IMG/VR virus record: IMGVR_UViG_3300035698_002903
Span: 1-45,187 of that record
Origin: a virus
Reading direction: 5' to 3' (one strand)
Length of the DNA stretch: 45,187 nucleotides
Both the position numbers and the translations under genes were made by a program. The notes beneath the pieces are model-generated. The model made no database searches and was not told where the DNA came from. It saw only the letters and a list, made by a program, of their open reading frames with translations. Shown here piece after piece: positions 2,754-42,040 of this stretch (positions are counted from its first letter, which is position 1; every line of letters begins with the position of its first letter).

Positions 2754-4175
2754 ATGGCACAATCATTCTTACATTTCAGCGACCTAATGCAGACTAAAAC
2801 GTCATCCTTTTTACGTAGACCCTCACAGTTAATCAGGGGTATAAATGTAAACGGTGATGAGATAGGCTCTTTACAGAAACGATTAGGATATACTCAATTT
2901 GGAGCTACTTTAACCTCAGGAAAGGACATTACAGGTTTACATAGTTATCCTTATAAGGCAGGAGGAACACAACACTTGTTTGCTTATGTGAATGGAGTAT
3001 TAAAATACTATAATGGGTCTTGGGCTGATTCTCAAGGGAGTCTTACAACTGATATAAATGCTGAATTCAGAGTACACCTAGATCAATTATTTATGGTAGG
3101 AGCTAATTCTAGTAATACATTTCTAACTACTGCGGTGATTACCGATACTACTTATGCGACTGATGGGAACGTAACTAATGCCCCTAATGGTAAATTTGTA
3201 GAGATATATAATGATCAGGTATTTATTGCTAACGCAGAAGTAGGAGGGGTTAGGTATCCGTCTAACTTCTATCGTTCAAGTGTGCCAACAATAGCAGGAG
3301 TGATTACATGGGATACTACTATTGACTATGAACAGGTTTATACTAATAACGGTGAAGAGATCACGAGTCTACATAATAATCAAGGTTTAAATAAGCTTTT
3401 AATATTTAAGAGATCATCCATCCACTCATGGGATACTTATAGAATAAACGATATATGGAACGTAGGCACAACAGCTCATAGATCAGTTCAGACTATTGAG
3501 GGAGTTACTTTCTTTTATAATAGTGACCGTAAAAAGATATACGCCTATAATGGCGAAACGGTTAAAAGTATATCACGGCCAATAGATAATTGGATAAAGG
3601 GTATACAAAATCCTAGTGATGTATTCGGAGGAGGACATGAAGAGTTTTATAAACTTTATGTAGGAGATATAGTGGTTGAGGGAATTACTTATACAAATTG
3701 TGAGATAAGATACTCTGAACCTGACAATACATTTGTTATCTATTCATACTACGATAACTTCACTTCTTACGCTACACACTCTGTATCAGACGTTAGTAGG
3801 TTATATGCAGGCGCAGACGATGGAGAGGTTCATCAATTAGCCATAGATGGTGATGAGGTTTATTCGGATGACGACCATGATATAGGAGCACAGTTCTTAT
3901 TTGAAACAGATTTTGGAGTACCTACTGAACGTAAATTTAGTGATAAGATACTTATATACAGTACACAAGCACAAAACCTAACAGGTAGAATAAGGGGTAG
4001 GGGAAAAGATTGGAGTTCTCAGTTCTCAGTTGATAAAGACGAACAAGAGAAAAACATAAACCCTAAAGACTCAAGGTTTGTACAATTTCATTTTAGCGAA
4101 AGTTCAATGAATGCCCCATTTAAGTTTGAGGGGATCTCATTAACTCCGAAACTAACTACTAAGAAATATAGTTAA
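2754..4175 (+). CDS. Beta-propeller neck/tail protein (P22 gp10-like or tail-tube-B-like)
   Basis: 473 residues of repeated short beta-type units with the look of propeller blades: LHSYPYKAGGTQHLFAYVNG, then RVHLDQLFMVG, KFVEIYNDQVFIANAE, LHNNQGLNKLLIFKRSSIH, GVTFFYNSDRKKIYAYNG and VSRLYAGADDGEVHQLAIDG. Propeller proteins of this length close the portal-adaptor channel of short-tailed phages (packaged-DNA stabilisation protein gp10 of P22) or form the nozzle. The N-terminus (FLRRPSQLIRGINVN) is typical of such proteins, which open with a short list of loaded elements. The ATG lies two bases after the connector stop. The class is fairly secure from the repeat pattern; the exact homologue is inferred. 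Confidence 0.55.
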   Translation: MAQSFLHFSDLMQTKTSSFLRRPSQLIRGINVNGDEIGSLQKRLGYTQFGATLTSGKDITGLHSYPYKAGGTQHLFAYVNGVLKYYNGSWADSQGSLTTDINAEFRVHLDQLFMVGANSSNTFLTTAVITDTTYATDGNVTNAPNGKFVEIYNDQVFIANAEVGGVRYPSNFYRSSVPTIAGVITWDTTIDYEQVYTNNGEEITSLHNNQGLNKLLIFKRSSIHSWDTYRINDIWNVGTTAHRSVQTIEGVTFFYNSDRKKIYAYNGETVKSISRPIDNWIKGIQNPSDVFGGGHEEFYKLYVGDIVVEGITYTNCEIRYSEPDNTFVIYSYYDNFTSYATHSVSDVSRLYAGADDGEVHQLAIDGDEVYSDDDHDIGAQFLFETDFGVPTERKFSDKILIYSTQAQNLTGRIRGRGKDWSSQFSVDKDEQEKNINPKDSRFVQFHFSESSMNAPFKFEGISLTPKLTTKKYS

Positions 4176-29997: not shown

Positions 29998-30213
29998 ATG
30001 CCAACAGAAGCACTAGCAAAGGTTTTGAAAAAAGTAGTACAAGAAGCTAAAGACCTTGCAGTTAAAGAATACAAAGAGGAGTTGCTAAAGAAGTTACCAA
30101 TCTACTCAATTTGCTCAAGACACCAAGAATACGACCATCACTGTGACATATGTAATACAATGGCAGAGAAGCAAGAAGCACTAGAAGAAATAACTAAACT
30201 AATACATGATTAA
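29998..30213 (+). CDS. Small His/Cys-rich protein, 71 residues
   Basis: A helical first half (KVVQEAKDLAVKEYKEELLK) is followed by SICSRHQEYDHHCDICNTMA, a likely zinc site made of Cys and His, and a final helix. It overlaps the small-terminase gene by eight bases. Function unknown; could assist packaging. Confidence 0.5.
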   Translation: MPTEALAKVLKKVVQEAKDLAVKEYKEELLKKLPIYSICSRHQEYDHHCDICNTMAEKQEALEEITKLIHD

Positions 30214-30556
30214 AGATAAAGGAGGACGACCAACCGTAATGACAACCGAGGTGCTAGATAAACTAGAACAGATGTTTGCTATTGGTGCAACAGACGAGGA
30301 AGCCTGTTTCTTTGCTAATATACACAAGGATACTCTGTATAAATACTGCAAAGAGCATCCAAAGTTTACCGACCGAAAAGAAGGACTCAAGGATAGACCT
30401 GTATTAAAGGCTAGAACTACAATAGTAGACGATTTAACAAAACCAGAATCAGCTAAATGGTACTTAGAAAGAAAGCGTAAGAAAGAGTTTAGTGTTAAGA
30501 CTGAAACAGATATAACAAGCGATGGTAAACCAATAGGAATTAACTTAGATGTATAA
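30206..30556 (+). CDS. terS: Terminase small subunit
   Basis: 116 residues. GRPTVMTTEVLDKLEQMFAI, then GATDEEACFFANIHKDTLYK forms the helix-turn-helix DNA-binding part typical of phage small terminases; KARTTIVDDLTKPESAKWYL and ERKRKKEFS are the conserved C-terminal region. It recognises the phage packaging site and feeds DNA to the large subunit coded about 260 bases downstream. Family pattern and position agree. Confidence 0.75.
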   Translation: MIKDKGGRPTVMTTEVLDKLEQMFAIGATDEEACFFANIHKDTLYKYCKEHPKFTDRKEGLKDRPVLKARTTIVDDLTKPESAKWYLERKRKKEFSVKTETDITSDGKPIGINLDV

Positions 30557-30819: not shown

Positions 30820-33057
30820 ATGAAAAACAAAGAATTCCTAGATTTTAGTGAGTTAGCAGGGTTTCAGCCTAAACAACTAGAGGCGTGTAGAGCAGTCAGA
30901 TCACATGAATATATACTTTATGGAGGAGCTGCTGGAGGAGGCAAGAGCTACTGGTTAAGATGGGAAGCTGTAGCATTATTGATATATTATTATCAGAAGT
31001 ACGGATTTAAGGGAGTAAGATTAGGATTATTCTGTGAAGATTACGTAGCATTAGCTGATAGGCATTTAAGTAAAGTAGTATACGAGTTCCCACCATGGTT
31101 AGGTAAACTGAATAAGAGTAGTCATGAATTTACATTAGCACCAGATTTCGGTAGTGGAGTTATAGCGTTCAGGAATCTAGATGATCCTTCAAAATATTTA
31201 TCAAGTGAGTTTGTAGCTATACTTGTAGATGAGCTAACAATGAACGAACGACACGTATTTGATTTCCTTAACATGAGAAGAAGATGGGTAGGGATTGAAG
31301 ATACTAAATTCATTGGAGCTACTAATCCAGGAGGTAAAGGGCATGGATTCGTTAAGAAGCTGTGGATAGATAGAGATTTCAGCGATGAGACATTCAACCC
31401 TGATAAGTTTAAGTTCATACAGGCTAAGGCTAGTGATAATGCTTTCCTACCAGAAACTTACGAAGAACAGCTAGGTACATTACCAGCAGAGATGGTTAAA
31501 GCTTACAGAGACGGAGACTGGAATGTGTTTCAAGGACAATTCTTTACAGAGTGGAGCAGCGAGAGACATGTTATTGATCCGTTTGATATACCAGATAGCT
31601 GGACAAAGATAAGATGTATAGATTACGGATACGTTAATCCAGTAGCAGTATATTGGTTGGCAATAGACTATGATAGTAATGTGTATGTTTACAGAGAACT
31701 CTACGAATCAAGTCTAACATATAGTGAACTAGCACAAAGAATAGGAGAAATGACACCTAATACCGAAACAGTAGATTATACAGTAGCAGATTCGGATATG
31801 TTCTCAAAAACTCGTGATACAGGAGAATACGGACCAGATATAATGTCAGAACAAGGAATAGATATAATGAACGCTAACAAGGAACGTCTACCAGGTTGGA
31901 ATCTATTTAAGAGATATTTAAAAGAGGATAGGATAAAGTTCTTTAAAACCTGTGTAAATGCTGTTAGAACAATTCCTAACATGACATACCCACCACTTAA
32001 CAAGAGAGTATCTAATCCAGAAGATCTATATAAGACAGGAGGATTTGATGGCGATCATGCCTGCTTTGTAGGAACGACCAAGGTTCGGATGGCTAATTGT
32101 AAAGAGAAGCAAATAAAAGATATACAAATAGGAGAATATGTCGCTACCCCTAATGGTGCAAAAAAGGTAATTGCATCAGATTGTACGGGGATTAAACCTG
32201 TAATAAAAGTAAAGATGAGTAACAAAAGAAGTCTAATAGGAACAAAGAGTCACAACATTTATACTCCTAAAGGCAAAGTTCCTCTTGATTCTTTGCGTAT
32301 GTATGATATAGTTAATTCATGGAAGAAAGCATTATATTCAACAAGCAACGATACTACTTTGATGGGAAATACTACGTTCCCTGTGGAGGATGTGCAAATG
32401 GAAGGAAACGATTACATGTTGCAGTATGGGAGAATATTCATGGAGTTATCCCGAAAGGGTATTGCATACATCACCTTGATAATGACCCAAAAAACAACAA
32501 TATTGACAACCTCAAATGTATTGACAAGACCGAACATCTTAGCTTTCATGCAAAAGAAAAGTTTAAGGACAAAAAATGGGCTGAACAAAACAAAATACAC
32601 ATGGCTAAGATCAGACCTCTTGCAAAGAAATGGCATGCTTCTGAGGAGGGTAGAGAATGGCATAAGCAAAATAGTAAAAAGGCTTGGAAAAATAAGAAAT
32701 GGCATACTAAGTTTTGTCAAATCTGCAATAAGGAATATAAAACTCCTTTTCCAACAAGGTCTAAATATTGTGGAGATGTTTGTAAATCAAAAGCCCAATG
32801 TATTCGTAATAAGCAAGCAACAACTAGAAGGCGTGCAAAAAGTGTATAACATTACAGTAGAGGATGTTCATTGTTATTACGCAGAAGGTGTTTTAGTAGC
32901 AAACTGTGACTCAATCAGAATGGGACTAATGAGCTTACCAGATACACCTGTACTAGGTAGAGAGAAACCACCACGTAATCCATACGAGAATGATCCTACA
33001 AGCCCTTGGGCTAACAAGAATAAGAAATCAAGTTACACTAATATATATTCAAGCTAA
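30820..33057 (+). CDS. terL: Terminase large subunit with in-frame intein
   Basis: 745 codons; 464 residues after removal of the 281-residue intein, a normal length. ATPase: Walker A YGGAAGGGKS (residues ~34-43), Walker B AILVDE (133-138). RNase-H-type nuclease: IDYGY with Asp268, VADSD at 323-327, and the third acidic motif GDHA|CDSIRMG, which the intein splits between residues 414 and 696. Pumps DNA into the prohead and cuts it. The frame stays open through the intein, including 531 bases that also encode an HNH protein in the -1 frame. Activity requires protein splicing to rebuild the third nuclease motif. Confidence 0.9.
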   Translation: MKNKEFLDFSELAGFQPKQLEACRAVRSHEYILYGGAAGGGKSYWLRWEAVALLIYYYQKYGFKGVRLGLFCEDYVALADRHLSKVVYEFPPWLGKLNKSSHEFTLAPDFGSGVIAFRNLDDPSKYLSSEFVAILVDELTMNERHVFDFLNMRRRWVGIEDTKFIGATNPGGKGHGFVKKLWIDRDFSDETFNPDKFKFIQAKASDNAFLPETYEEQLGTLPAEMVKAYRDGDWNVFQGQFFTEWSSERHVIDPFDIPDSWTKIRCIDYGYVNPVAVYWLAIDYDSNVYVYRELYESSLTYSELAQRIGEMTPNTETVDYTVADSDMFSKTRDTGEYGPDIMSEQGIDIMNANKERLPGWNLFKRYLKEDRIKFFKTCVNAVRTIPNMTYPPLNKRVSNPEDLYKTGGFDGDHACFVGTTKVRMANCKEKQIKDIQIGEYVATPNGAKKVIASDCTGIKPVIKVKMSNKRSLIGTKSHNIYTPKGKVPLDSLRMYDIVNSWKKALYSTSNDTTLMGNTTFPVEDVQMEGNDYMLQYGRIFMELSRKGIAYITLIMTQKTTILTTSNVLTRPNILAFMQKKSLRTKNGLNKTKYTWLRSDLLQRNGMLLRRVENGISKIVKRLGKIRNGILSFVKSAIRNIKLLFQQGLNIVEMFVNQKPNVFVISKQQLEGVQKVYNITVEDVHCYYAEGVLVANCDSIRMGLMSLPDTPVLGREKPPRNPYENDPTSPWANKNKKSSYTNIYSS
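32062..32904 (+). mobile_element. Intein in the terminase large subunit
   Basis: 281 residues (415-695 of the reading frame). Block A starts with Cys: CFVGTTKVRM and QIKDIQIGEYVATPNG. Block B is GTKSHNIYTPKG with the expected Thr and His. Blocks F/G are VYNITVEDVHCYYAEGVLVA then Asn695, with Cys696 as the +1 residue. The penultimate residue is Ala rather than the usual His. The joint falls inside the conserved nuclease motif, a typical intein site. The linker between B and F, about residues 500-675, reads as non-homing-endonuclease sequence in this frame because the endonuclease is coded in the -1 frame. Confidence 0.85.
32319..32849 (+). CDS. HNH homing endonuclease nested out of frame inside the intein
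   Basis: 176 residues in the -1 frame relative to terL, ATG 32319 to TAA 32847-32849. RLHVAVWENIHGVIPKGYCI then HHLDNDPKNNNIDNLKCI is an HNH core of the homing type (His-His, Asn, Asn). Basic repeats follow (KKWAEQNKIHMAKIRPLAKK; KKAWKNKKWHTKF), and the C-terminus has a zinc finger FCQICNKEYKTP with YCGDVCKS. It fills the usual endonuclease slot between intein blocks B and F, and its stop lies at the first residue of block F. An in-frame stop lies just before the ATG (32313-32315), so it must start independently. No Shine-Dalgarno is seen. Confidence 0.85.
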   Translation: MEESIIFNKQRYYFDGKYYVPCGGCANGRKRLHVAVWENIHGVIPKGYCIHHLDNDPKNNNIDNLKCIDKTEHLSFHAKEKFKDKKWAEQNKIHMAKIRPLAKKWHASEEGREWHKQNSKKAWKNKKWHTKFCQICNKEYKTPFPTRSKYCGDVCKSKAQCIRNKQATTRRRAKSV

Positions 33058-33270: not shown

Positions 33271-35271
33271 ATGCCAGTAAACTCAAAAGAGATAGATAAG
33301 ATACCTGCTTACAAACCTTCCAAGGAAGATGAGCAGCTTGTTTTAGATCTAATGGAGAGAATAAGTGATCTACAAGAACACCGTGCAGGTCTAATGGCTA
33401 ATCCTTATGATGATAGTGATAAGGCACGTACAATAGAGGATACATGGGACTACTGCGATCAAGTATCTTTACCACATAAATACTCACATAAAGAAATGAG
33501 AGATTGGATGGCAGACAATAGTCATCCTTTAGCTTTTGCTAAGATGGATACAGCAGTTTCAATCCTAATGGCCAAGAACCCTGAAGTAGAGATAGCACCT
33601 AGAGAAGAGAACTTTGACTCTAAAGCAAGAATACTTGAAGCTTTATACTCTATAAGCTGGGATAAAGGGAACGGTAGACAACAAATGATTAAGTTTATGA
33701 ATGGTACAGCTAAGTACGGATTCATGCCTGCTAGGGAGTACCATAGATACAAAACTAAGATCATAGACGAGATTGTAAGTTATGATCCTAAGACTGGTAA
33801 ACACAAAACAGAAGAAGTAGAAATAACAGAACATGATGAAGCATACTTTGAGGTTCTACCTATAAGAGATGTATGGATAGATAACAGAGCTAAACCTTAT
33901 GATGAAAGCTCTATTAGAGATTGGGCATGGCAGAAGGTATATGACTACTCAACATTCCAAATAGAATTTCCTAAAGAAAGATTCCCTAATGCTAAGTTTG
34001 TACAACCTAATTATGGTGGGCATAATAAAGACGAAGGAGAGAAGAATAACGATGAAGTAGGAGAGAAAGCCGTTAGACTCTTTTTCTATGAAGATATAGA
34101 GAATAATGAGTTCCTTATTACAGATGGATTGGTAAAAGTATATCAAGGCCCACTAATCAACAACCAACTTAGTTTAGTCTATGCGATGTGGAAACAACGT
34201 AACGAACAGACTATTTACGGCATAGGATTACCAGAGATACTAGAAGGTAATCAGGAAATGCTAGACAGGATAGGGAATATGTCACTCAATCAGATAGTCC
34301 TTACAATAGGAGGAGCAGGATTTTATGACGGTAAAGGGAACGTGACTCAAAATGATATGACGCTTGAGCCTAAACTTAAGAAAGTACAAAACCCACAAAG
34401 TATAGTATTCCCTAAAATACCAGATGTAAGTCAATCAGTATTTAAAATGATAGAAGATATACGTAATGAAGCTGACGAGACAAGTGGAGTTACTAAAGCA
34501 TTAGGAGGAGAACAAGTAGGAAAGACTCTAGGAGAAGCTGTATTGAACCGTGAAGCAGGACTAAGGAGACTATCAACACCATTACAGAATATTGAATTTG
34601 CATTAGAACGACACGCTAGACTGCGTGTTGATTTGATTCAACTTATATATTCCAACGCTCCTAAGACTGATATGGTAATAGATGAATTCGGATCAGTAAT
34701 AAGCGAGAAGCTTTACCAAGAATACCTAGAAGAAGTAGCTAATAAGGGAGCTAACACATTAGCAACAGCTCAGAAGTTCCCTGTATTAGAGGATGGATCA
34801 CTTGTAAGAAACCAATTTAGACAAGAACCTTTACCATTAGAGAAGACAGAAGAAGGAGAAGTACAACCAACAGATGATGATACAATCCTAGAAATCACAC
34901 CTGAAGAGATCAGAGGTAACTACGATGTAAGAATAAGAGCATTCAGTACAATCCCTATGAGTCAGACACTTGAAGAGAGTAAAGCCCTAGAAACATACAA
35001 CATATTACTAAGCAATCCATACGTAGACGCATACAAAGCCACTGCACGCTTCCTAAGAGCTAGGAAGGAAGATCCAGACGATTGGCTACTTTCACAAGAA
35101 CAAATCACAGAGACACAAGGGCAAGCAGCAGAATTACCACCAGATATAGAAGGAGCAACAGGAGGATTTGTTGGAGGTGGAGCAGGAGGAGGCAAGATGA
35201 GTAAACAACCACAGCAATCAGCAGCAGGAGGTGGAGTTAGCGCACAAGTAAGTAAATCTATAACCGTTTAA
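33271..35271 (+). CDS. Portal protein
   Basis: 666 residues, in the size range of podovirus portals. Features: an N-terminal region (DTAVSILMAKNPEVEIAPRE), the crown/stem part YFEVLPIRDVWIDNRAKPYD, the wing part YAMWKQRNEQTIYGIGLPEI with LEGNQEMLDRIGNMSLNQIV, and the stretch NEADETSGVTKALGGEQVGK typical of this portal family. The C-terminus has a Gly-rich segment. Twelve copies form the DNA channel at one capsid vertex and bind the terminase. It follows terL by one small gene, the usual order. Confidence 0.85.
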   Translation: MPVNSKEIDKIPAYKPSKEDEQLVLDLMERISDLQEHRAGLMANPYDDSDKARTIEDTWDYCDQVSLPHKYSHKEMRDWMADNSHPLAFAKMDTAVSILMAKNPEVEIAPREENFDSKARILEALYSISWDKGNGRQQMIKFMNGTAKYGFMPAREYHRYKTKIIDEIVSYDPKTGKHKTEEVEITEHDEAYFEVLPIRDVWIDNRAKPYDESSIRDWAWQKVYDYSTFQIEFPKERFPNAKFVQPNYGGHNKDEGEKNNDEVGEKAVRLFFYEDIENNEFLITDGLVKVYQGPLINNQLSLVYAMWKQRNEQTIYGIGLPEILEGNQEMLDRIGNMSLNQIVLTIGGAGFYDGKGNVTQNDMTLEPKLKKVQNPQSIVFPKIPDVSQSVFKMIEDIRNEADETSGVTKALGGEQVGKTLGEAVLNREAGLRRLSTPLQNIEFALERHARLRVDLIQLIYSNAPKTDMVIDEFGSVISEKLYQEYLEEVANKGANTLATAQKFPVLEDGSLVRNQFRQEPLPLEKTEEGEVQPTDDDTILEITPEEIRGNYDVRIRAFSTIPMSQTLEESKALETYNILLSNPYVDAYKATARFLRARKEDPDDWLLSQEQITETQGQAAELPPDIEGATGGFVGGGAGGGKMSKQPQQSAAGGGVSAQVSKSITV

Positions 35272-39231: not shown

Positions 39232-39313
39232 CCTAAACAGCCACGCTGAGTCCTTCTCTGCACAAGTCTTGGTAGAGAGTTGCACAGCACAATTATTATT
39301 TAAAAGACTTATT

Positions 39314-42040
39314 ATGATTAAATCAGGAATACCTACCAACCCGATGAGCAATGCTTTTCTGCACGGTGGGAAAAAAACGAATGGAGGAGGTATCTTGTTC
39401 CAATGGAACAATACTTTACTTCCAGACCTAAGTTCTGGTGATAGAGCTATTGGATGGCAAGGTGCAGTTCTCAAGAGCTGGTCAGGATCAGCTTGGGGAA
39501 ATGTTGGAGGAAGTGGTACTACAGGTTCATTAAATGACGCTTATGATAACGGTTCAGTTATCGCTATAGATGCAGGAGCGGTTGAAATGAATGGTACACA
39601 CGCTACTAATAATGTACTTGAGCTTACATTAATAGGTGCAGGTACAGGTAATATGATAGACATCCAGAATGATTCAAGTGGAACTGCTGGATATGATATT
39701 ATCGGTACAGATGATAGCTGGTATGTAACAGTTGCAGGAGCAGCATTGCTAACAGGTATTACAGGTTGCGACACTATCGTTGCAGACGGAAATTTATCTC
39801 TTGATGCTAGCGGTACAGGAACAATCACTCTAGGAGGTACTTCAACAGGAGCAATCACGCTTACTAGAGCAGTAACAGCTACAGCTTCAGTTACAATTAC
39901 TGGTTCAGCAGATACAGACGTATTGTCGGTTACAGACGGTGATGTTTTGATTGACGATGGTCAACTTACAATTACTGAAAGCGACACAGCTACTTACGCA
40001 CAGACAATCACATCAGCAGGTACAGGTGGTGGTGGTATCTCAATTACAGCAGACGATCTGACAACAGGTTCAGCTATTTATGTTGATTCAGATACAGGAG
40101 CTACATTCTCTGGAGATGGTGGTTATGTAAACTTAATGAACGGTGTAAGCTCAGTATTCAAAGTACAGAGGTATGGTGCTACTACAATCGCTGGTAATGC
40201 TGGTTCAGCAGTATTTGCGATCACAGCAGGTGACGCAACAATGTCAGATGGTTCACTTGCGATTACTGATGCTGATAATGCAGCTACGCTTACAGTTACT
40301 AATAACACTGCTACTACAGCAGATGTTGTTGTATTCACAGGATCAGGTGCTTTCACAGGAGATAGTTTTATGAGTATCGTACCTAGTGGATTGACTACAG
40401 GATCAGCTTTAGCTATTACGGCTGCAGCACTTACAACAGGTGAAGCACTCTTAATTACTACTAGCGCTATTACTTCTGGTAATGCGGTTTATATTACAAG
40501 TGCTGGTGAAGCAATGACTTCAGGAGAATTATTGACAGTTCTTAATAACGAATCAGGAAATATCGCTACAATTACAGGTAATATAGCTAGCTTTACTTCT
40601 GCAATAGAAGAGACTGCTGGTACATTGACAGCTAATTACGATAACACCTTATTCAGTAGAACAGACAAGCAGTCATTTGCAGCACAGTATGATGCTCAAG
40701 GTTCAAATGTTAAGATTCTAAAAACTCAAAACAAAGCAGCAGGTACAATCGTAGACGCTGTAATTAATCTTGAGATTGAGTCAGTAGCTACAACTTCAGC
40801 TTTGATACTAGGTGATTCGGTTAAGGTTACATCAGTAGGTGTAAACGAAAGATCACTTAATGTTATAAATGCTTGTACTGGTAAAGATTCAGTATTAATT
40901 ACGGCTTCAGGTGCGTTGACTAATGGCCTTGCAGCTTTACACGTTACTGCTACAGGAAACTTAGCGGCAGGTGGTGCAGCTTTAATACTTGACACAAATA
41001 CAGGTACACCAACTGTTACTTCAAGGTTACTAGAACTTGCTAGTGCTGAAGATATGGTAGGTATGTATTCTAATGTTGATGGTGCTACAGAAGACGTTTA
41101 TTACTTTGAAGGCGGTGGCGATATAGCGACTACTAAGGCAATGGTAAACTTAAATCTAAGCGGAGACCCTGCTGACGATACGGTTGCAGTCTTAAAAGTA
41201 CAGAACACAGGTACTACAACACACGAATCTAAAGGTATCTACGTTGTAGGTGGAGATATTACTGGATTGATGATAGACGTAGATTCAGTATACTCCGCAG
41301 CTAACGATTCAGGTGCTATTACACTTTACTCAAATGCTGCTGGTGATCTACCAGTATTCATGAACTTCTACCATGAAGACGCAGGTGCAGTAGACGGAGA
41401 ATATTGTGGAAAAATCTTCTTCTACGGAAGTGATGACGCTCCTGCAAAGGAACTTTACGCTTCTATTGAGGTTGAAATGGATGACACAGGCGCAGCTAAT
41501 CCAGACGGTATACTATGGATCAAAGGTGATTTGGCAGGAACTAACACTAATTCAGCAGGATTCACAGGTAATACGGTAATGCTAGGAGCAGCAGCAGCTA
41601 CATTAACAACTGCAGGTGCTTGGGATTTGACTATCTCAACCGCACTTACAGCTACAGGAGAGCCTAGACTCGTCCTTACAGACGGTAATGCAGGTAATAT
41701 CACAATTACTGCAGGTGCTACTTCAGGAGAGATAGTTATGGCTAGTCCAGTCGCACACTCATCTACTCAATCATTGAGTGGAGCAGGGGATGTAGGAGTT
41801 ACTACTTCTATTACAGAAGTAACAACAACTGGAACAGATGCACTTACTCTTGGAAATGGTGTTGAAGGACAAATCAAATTTATTACTATGATCGGTGATG
41901 GTGGTGAAGGAACGCTTACACCTACCGCTCTAACAGGATATTCTACAATCAAATTTCAAGATATAGGAGATTCTGTAACCTTACTATTCACTAACACTTC
42001 TTGGAGTGTAGTGGGACAAGTAGGATGTACAATAGCTTAG
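39314..42040 (+). CDS. Large Thr/Ala-rich repeat virion protein (head-fibre-like)
   Basis: Start set at ATG 39314; a TTG reading from 39269 would begin in the hairpin-rich leader. 908 residues with many degenerate beta repeats (TDVLSVTDGDVLIDDGQLTI; TTGSALAITAAALTTGEALL) and no Cys-rich or catalytic motif. The last ~70 residues (VEGQIKFITMIGDGGEGTLT, DIGDSVTLLFTNTSWSVVGQ) form a C-terminal domain I recall from fibre-like proteins coded after phage capsid genes. Likely a fibre or surface decoration; receptor or capsid attachment is not shown. Confidence 0.55.
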   Translation: MIKSGIPTNPMSNAFLHGGKKTNGGGILFQWNNTLLPDLSSGDRAIGWQGAVLKSWSGSAWGNVGGSGTTGSLNDAYDNGSVIAIDAGAVEMNGTHATNNVLELTLIGAGTGNMIDIQNDSSGTAGYDIIGTDDSWYVTVAGAALLTGITGCDTIVADGNLSLDASGTGTITLGGTSTGAITLTRAVTATASVTITGSADTDVLSVTDGDVLIDDGQLTITESDTATYAQTITSAGTGGGGISITADDLTTGSAIYVDSDTGATFSGDGGYVNLMNGVSSVFKVQRYGATTIAGNAGSAVFAITAGDATMSDGSLAITDADNAATLTVTNNTATTADVVVFTGSGAFTGDSFMSIVPSGLTTGSALAITAAALTTGEALLITTSAITSGNAVYITSAGEAMTSGELLTVLNNESGNIATITGNIASFTSAIEETAGTLTANYDNTLFSRTDKQSFAAQYDAQGSNVKILKTQNKAAGTIVDAVINLEIESVATTSALILGDSVKVTSVGVNERSLNVINACTGKDSVLITASGALTNGLAALHVTATGNLAAGGAALILDTNTGTPTVTSRLLELASAEDMVGMYSNVDGATEDVYYFEGGGDIATTKAMVNLNLSGDPADDTVAVLKVQNTGTTTHESKGIYVVGGDITGLMIDVDSVYSAANDSGAITLYSNAAGDLPVFMNFYHEDAGAVDGEYCGKIFFYGSDDAPAKELYASIEVEMDDTGAANPDGILWIKGDLAGTNTNSAGFTGNTVMLGAAAATLTTAGAWDLTISTALTATGEPRLVLTDGNAGNITITAGATSGEIVMASPVAHSSTQSLSGAGDVGVTTSITEVTTTGTDALTLGNGVEGQIKFITMIGDGGEGTLTPTALTGYSTIKFQDIGDSVTLLFTNTSWSVVGQVGCTIA

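Follow-up and report, generated by a model that had tools for sequence, protein, structure and literature searches.

Inteins are usually described with a homing endonuclease (HEN) as a fused, in-frame domain. The large terminase gene (terL) of the viral record IMGVR_UViG_3300035698_002903 (IMG/VR; positions 1 to 45,187, with this whole stretch of 45,187 nucleotides referred to here as the window) raises the question of how to read an intein that holds a complete HNH endonuclease in a second reading frame. Our analysis indicates that this is very probably a mobile terL intein whose homing endonuclease is a separate overprinted gene, read at -1 from the bases of the intein linker. The features on which this reading is based are as follows (pLDDT, predicted local distance difference test score).

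30820-33057, plus strand: terL open reading frame (ORF), large terminase with intein; 745 codons, 464 amino acids once spliced.
32062-32904, plus strand: intein of 281 amino acids (C1 to N281); blocks A, B, F and G aligned with 43-47 sequences, intein_Cterm match, Hint fold.
32062-32316, plus strand: N-terminal splicing half with blocks A and B (CFVGTTKV, TKSH); pLDDT about 97 except for the last few residues.
32313-32321, plus strand: in-frame TAA (32313-32315), one codon, then the HNH ATG; read from the sequence, with a similar position in relatives.
32317-32796, plus strand: linker in the terL frame, its bases common with the HNH ORF, without a confident fold (pLDDT mostly 36-83); only stop codons are avoided.
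32319-32849, plus strand: overprinted HNH endonuclease, 176 amino acids, -1 frame relative to terL; from Pfam, PHROG, alignment and structure.
32797-32904, plus strand: C-terminal splicing half with blocks F and G (VYNITVEDVHCYYAEGVLVAN); from intein_Cterm, alignment and structure model.
32847-32849, plus strand: HNH stop TAA, spanning TAT AAC (Tyr-Asn) of block F; read from the sequence.
32905-32907, plus strand: Cys at the intein +1 position; the insertion lies in the C-terminal catalytic motif DHA^CDSIR.

The terL frame is free of stop codons from 30820 to 33057, and the HNH ORF lies at -1 to it between intein blocks B and F, both as claimed in a preliminary description of the window made from the sequence alone. 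The HNH start codon sits within the intein codons TCA-TGG-AAG (Ser-Trp-Lys) and, again as described, one codon past an in-frame stop. The HNH stop had been placed at the first residue of block F but actually falls on the second and third residues of its 'VYN' motif, with its T taken from the end of Tyr676 (TAT) and its AA from the start of Asn677 (AAC). Matches to Pfam HNH_3 (PF13392, E 5e-13) and PHROG 15471 (E 5e-25) agree with the HNH core and C-terminal zinc finger recognized earlier, and the residues of both (H51, H52, N60, N64 and H73; C133/C136/C151/C155) are invariant across an alignment of the family. The ORF is not a chance product, because its stop-free run of 177 codons stands alone in the -1 frame of terL (the second longest is 33 codons) and none of 2000 host-synonymous shuffles of this stretch was stop-free (mean of 10.7 stops). 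Conversely, only about 2% of HNH-synonymous shuffles were without a stop in the terL frame.

Structure predictions, for which rows from the phages collection were left out, gave an HNH model with a pLDDT of 95. The best solved match to the HNH protein was the homing endonuclease I-HmuI (profile search E 0.001; VIA-align Z 7.6 over 76 residues), and a Foldseek search with the HNH model returned no match below E 0.001. In the AlphaFold model of the terL product, the scores listed above set the splicing halves apart from the linker, which had been described as lacking an evident fold and has no confident one here; a folded linker was considered and is not supported by this model.

The intein itself comprises terL residues 415-695, which leaves a spliced TerL of the length foreseen, and this product aligns across the junction in one piece with intein-free TerLs. 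Residues needed for cis-splicing are present (C1, T61/H64 of TxxH, V261-N281 and the +1 Cys) and conserved in the 43-47 aligned sequences. The intein_Cterm match (E 1e-5) is above its curated cut-off, and matches to Hom_end_hint, Intein_splicing and Vint are below their own cut-offs. The predicted halves have a Hint fold resembling the gp41-1, RecA and DnaB inteins (E down to 2.6e-6). The arrangement corresponds neither to a split intein, in which the N- and C-terminal intein parts (IntN and IntC) are on separate ORFs, as the terL frame here is open throughout, nor to the usual HEN-bearing intein, with its endonuclease fused in frame between blocks B and F, as the HNH here is in the -1 frame.

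Relatives show that this double reading is not peculiar to the window. A tblastn search of the window HNH against phage records matched the terminase genes of Rhodobacteraceae phage LS06-2018-MD07, Acinetobacter phage Highwayman and Tetrasphaera phage TJE1, together with an unannotated faecal contig, and each of the four carries the HNH at -1 within a TerL that has an intein; in the three cultured phages the region is annotated as terL only. A blastn search of terL against phage records gave no match. Scanning IMG/VR with one sequence at a time, either the whole window TerL or the HNH, yielded no confirmed relatives, but an N-extein query and a five-sequence alignment query did, the latter finding 483 relatives in IMG/VR (80 kept) and 20 more in GTDB genomes. 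The resulting set of 105 loci with an HNH relative was collected by similarity to overprinted copies, and so gives no family-wide share of overprinting; an open host frame fully covers the HNH in 83 of them. The covered HNHs are almost all inside inteins, mostly in TerL, and 82 of the 83 are at -1 relative to the host. The other, a lone HNH within an intein-like host ORF (L084:2277-2834), is covered by the opposite relative frame and is probably of independent origin. Among 57 representative host proteins, 54 had a TerL family match; the others are methyltransferases (L098, L100) and an aminotransferase-like protein (L067). In the latter (L067:2614-5781), the overprinted HNH intein resides in a sugar aminotransferase-like gene, assigned by eye to the DegT family.

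A second scan, using a methyltransferase-borne HNH as the query, recovered a more distant subfamily of 21 loci (three already in the first set), 20 of which are overprinted, again with the HNH at -1. An intein N-terminal block is present in 13 of these overprinted loci and absent from seven. The latter (L141, L144-L146 and L148-L150, near position 3001, or 1673 in L149) are methyltransferase genes with a -1 HNH and no intein motifs. The overprinted HNH recurs in dozens of distant phage lineages. An assembly or sequencing artefact, or a chance ORF lacking function, has next to no probability as an explanation: no point was found in its favor, relatives had already refuted it, the frame relation is common to more than 50 clusters from independent contigs and cultured phages, and the HNH frame is under purifying selection.

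To what extent both frames are maintained can be read from the relatives. Across 53 clusters, the host frame contained no stops over the HNH, compared with 110.8 expected from HNH-synonymous shuffles (log10 P about -77). As a control, 11 HNH relatives, either free-standing or flanked by the halves of a split intein, had 54 stops versus 53.3 expected. Differences between related loci numbered 345, 270 and 722 at HNH codon positions 1, 2 and 3, respectively. Nine close pairs gave a nonsynonymous-to-synonymous ratio (each class of change relative to expectation) of about 0.19 for the HNH frame and 1.87 for the linker frame, and no new linker stops versus about 10.6 expected. Because of this difference and the lack of linker stops, the region is seen to evolve as an HNH gene, with the linker frame as a passenger that needs only to stay open. 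The second frame hence has selection of its own, as in an overprinted pair, measured here on relatives. The preliminary description had viewed the two frames as constraining each other. This stands insofar as the linker frame is kept open and the HNH sequence is under purifying selection, but the constraint is not symmetrical, the linker being otherwise almost unconstrained.

These data also bear on whether the linker frame encodes a functional domain of its own, with both readings under full protein-level selection. The long helices that AlphaFold predicts in the linker, parts of which reach a pLDDT of about 83, would fit this idea, but the fastest-changing site is linker codon position 2, the nonsynonymous excess in the linker runs counter to it, the linker-silent share of HNH-changing substitutions (34/88) is near the expected 0.32, and residual linker similarity is expected from the HNH frame. 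We consider a functional linker quite improbable.

If the HNH is a gene in its own right, how would it be translated? Among 55 representatives, the start codon is ATG in 51, GTG in three and neither in one, and in the 54 in which it was located an in-frame stop lies 0-12 codons upstream. In 42 the start reads ATGG, the ATG often overlapping the TGG of the Hint 'GW' motif. At the other end, the HNH stop in the window and its relatives is very often within the block F VY[DN] motif, presumably because TAT followed by AAY or GAY yields TAA or TGA in the -1 frame. Shine-Dalgarno sequences at HNH starts are, over all loci, weaker than at random positions, and were therefore tested against each locus's own genes; there, the starts of the HNH and of the other genes vary together in Shine-Dalgarno strength (rho 0.52, P 2e-4). 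The mRNA at the HNH start is also less structured than its flanks. Since Shine-Dalgarno strength tracks the locus and the start is less structured, independent initiation is favored.

A programmed -1 frameshift on terL, which would yield a fusion of TerL, IntN and HNH, could also account for an HNH product at -1, and the relation seen in 82 of 83 covered loci is in the direction expected of such slippage. Nonetheless, we regard it as very improbable. A ribosome slipping upstream in the window would end at the in-frame stop one codon before the ATG, which argues against frameshifting and led us to reject a frameshift origin of the HNH; the stop-to-start gap is also short among the representatives, and their start codon is conserved. 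The frame bias has a simpler cause: free-standing HNH relatives hold 4.2 stops in the +1 frame versus 10.9 in the other frame. Overall, the earlier proposal of a separate HNH protein made from an internal start over the intein linker is supported by an arrangement seen again in 82 other loci and is consistent with all tests made, which point to, rather than demonstrate, such a product.

Evidence for mobility comes from Acinetobacter phages. Among 42 matching records, only the Highwayman terL holds the insert, and comparison with Acba_21 shows an exact insertion of 981 nucleotides (327 codons) that corresponds to the intein, between flanks that are 99.5% identical. All 15 flank differences lie between about 160 nucleotides upstream and 13 nucleotides downstream of the junction, and the +1 position is Leu in the empty allele (Acba_21) and Cys in the filled allele (Highwayman). 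This pattern looks like homing with co-conversion, in a lineage other than that of the window. In addition, HNH distances correlate better with those of the splicing domain (Mantel r 0.82) than with those of the N-extein (0.68), and the intein and its hidden gene therefore appear to travel together.

Alternatively, the HNH could be a packaging accessory nested in terL, like HK97 gp74, with no homing role. HNH relatives often adjoin terL even where no intein is present, and HNH proteins cooperate with terminases in some phages. However, several observations count against it. Among near-identical phages, the insertion is sporadic and precise and has a co-conversion-like tract; members of the family also reside in genes for methyltransferases and an aminotransferase-like protein; a homing enzyme, I-HmuI, is the nearest relative of solved structure; and a truncated HNH copy exists. 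A packaging role is hence unlikely, although it retains a small probability. The truncated copy is in the distant locus L133 (2989-3300), where the HNH frame is truncated and the methyltransferase/intein frame is open. The preliminary description had named this combination as evidence against its reading; L133 provides it, but reads as ordinary decay rather than as a spurious ORF, and is likely a decaying homing endonuclease.

We propose that the overprinted intein would operate from a single mRNA with two products. Ribosomes on terL would make a precursor that runs from the N-terminal part of TerL through IntN, some 160-175 residues of meaningless linker and IntC to the C-terminal part of TerL, and this precursor would splice in cis to the 464-residue TerL. 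Ribosomes starting at the internal ATG at 32319 would make the free 176-residue HNH endonuclease. The enzyme would then cut terL alleles that lack the intein, close to their conserved catalytic motif, and the intein with its hidden gene would be copied in full into the cut allele during repair.

Several points weigh against this proposal. The penultimate intein residue is Ala instead of the usual His, and splicing might consequently be slow. A Shine-Dalgarno sequence is absent at the window HNH start, as it is on average in the other window genes. HNH proteins also act in phage packaging, which leaves a non-homing role a small probability. The window has no close relative (the nearest HNH comparisons are at about 50% identity or less), and mobility and selection are for this reason deduced from relatives, while splicing, internal initiation, HNH expression and cleavage of the empty site are steps that we infer.

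Overprinting is one of several solutions in this HNH family. Other ARRANGEMENTS of the same family are in-frame fused, split-intein or free-standing, for example:

L108:2986-5325: terL with an in-frame HNH intein.
L066:1369-3852 and L048:474-3834: split terL loci with an IntN ORF, then HNH, then an IntC-TerL C-terminal ORF.

The nearest TerL relatives of the window (L107 and L108, 49% identity) have their intein one residue from the window site, with the HNH in frame. IntN, HNH and IntC are on separate ORFs in L048, L066, L091, L094 and L126 (Vibrio phage 1.238.A), and a free-standing HNH lies behind an intein-less terL in L016, L031, L035, L047, L069, L077 and phages PAE1 and SN1. In L066, the IntC ATG (3619) overlaps the HNH stop, which suggests coupled translation followed by trans-splicing. 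In L126 (NC_055735), gp12, annotated as 'hedgehog/hint domain protein', looks like IntC plus the TerL C-terminus, and the HNH between the halves is unannotated. In L124 (Exiguobacterium phage vB_EauM-23), an HNH interrupts terL at the same motif with no visible Hint blocks, and this could be an intron. L125 (Brochothrix phage BL3, 1936-2607) is a decayed copy: its terL intein has host-frame stops, and of the HNH only the zinc finger survives, as a remnant at -1.

On a tree built from the HNH, well-supported branches require overprinting to have changed at least five times, and parsimony twelve times; these counts carry no direction, and the tree has several uncertain long branches. With slightly better than even confidence, we favor a broader view in which dual coding is a widespread intein design that exists alongside mini-inteins and inteins with a fused HEN. 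The splicing domain would supply both the start context (the TGG of Trp) and the stop (Tyr-Asp/Asn of block F), and the state would be repeatedly gained or lost as the HNH passes from one form to another at the same motif in terL (free-standing, split, fused or overprinted).

The genes on either side of terL in the window are as follows.

30206-30556, plus strand: terS, small terminase (PHROG 4102).
33271-35271, plus strand: portal protein (PHROG 156).

Further downstream, a 923-residue ORF (39269-42040) has no PHROG match, and a search for tRNA genes in the window found none.

If the proposed reading is true, many phage inteins with a seemingly meaningless linker hide a complete homing endonuclease missed by gene callers. 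Overprinting would separate the endonuclease from splicing at the protein level and yet keep both inseparable in the DNA. It also represents a rare natural overlap in which one frame is nearly a pure passenger, such that the cost of overprinting is measurable, and comparison with the copies that are fused, split or free-standing at a single terL motif makes the origin of HEN-bearing inteins testable.

Among known systems, HNH_3 homing endonucleases of the I-HmuI type share the core and fold of the window HNH, but its C-terminal zinc finger part does not align to I-HmuI, which is encoded in a group I intron. Fractured genes, in which split inteins reportedly have an interposed endonuclease (Dassa et al. 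2009), also place a separate endonuclease gene between IntN and IntC, as this same HNH family does in the five split loci above; in the window, by contrast, the host frame is open, so that cis-splicing is possible. In HEN-containing inteins, for example PI-SceI, the HEN insertion site is conserved (PMC6801210). The window HNH occupies the same slot of the Hint fold and has the same proposed role in spreading, but is encoded in another frame, probably as a separate protein, rather than as an in-frame fusion.

The closest precedent to the overprinted intein is the ShiLan domain (2025, PMC11855218), in which a phage gene contains an open mobile insertion whose third frame encodes an entire HNH, zinc fingers included; this HNH has an internal start, and the host-frame reading has no confident fold. 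Its authors found no splicing domain, and the insertion stays in the methylase. The window likewise has an out-of-frame HNH in an open insertion, a host reading with no confident fold and a putative internal start, and the seven overprinted loci of the second scan with no intein N-terminal block resemble the ShiLan domain. The window differs in that its HNH is inside a recognizable intein with a complete Hint domain, in an essential packaging gene and with counterparts in many lineages, and in that selection on the two frames was measured here for the overprinted-intein set. On overlapping actinophage reading frames, the same paper cites a preprint by Gosselin et al. (2025) about inteins of non-canonical architecture in actinophages, which may report inteins with overlapping endonuclease ORFs and bears on the priority of the overprinted intein; most loci in our set are from uncultured viruses that are not known to be actinophages. 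We claim the overprinted intein as a variant on this precedent, short of a new category.
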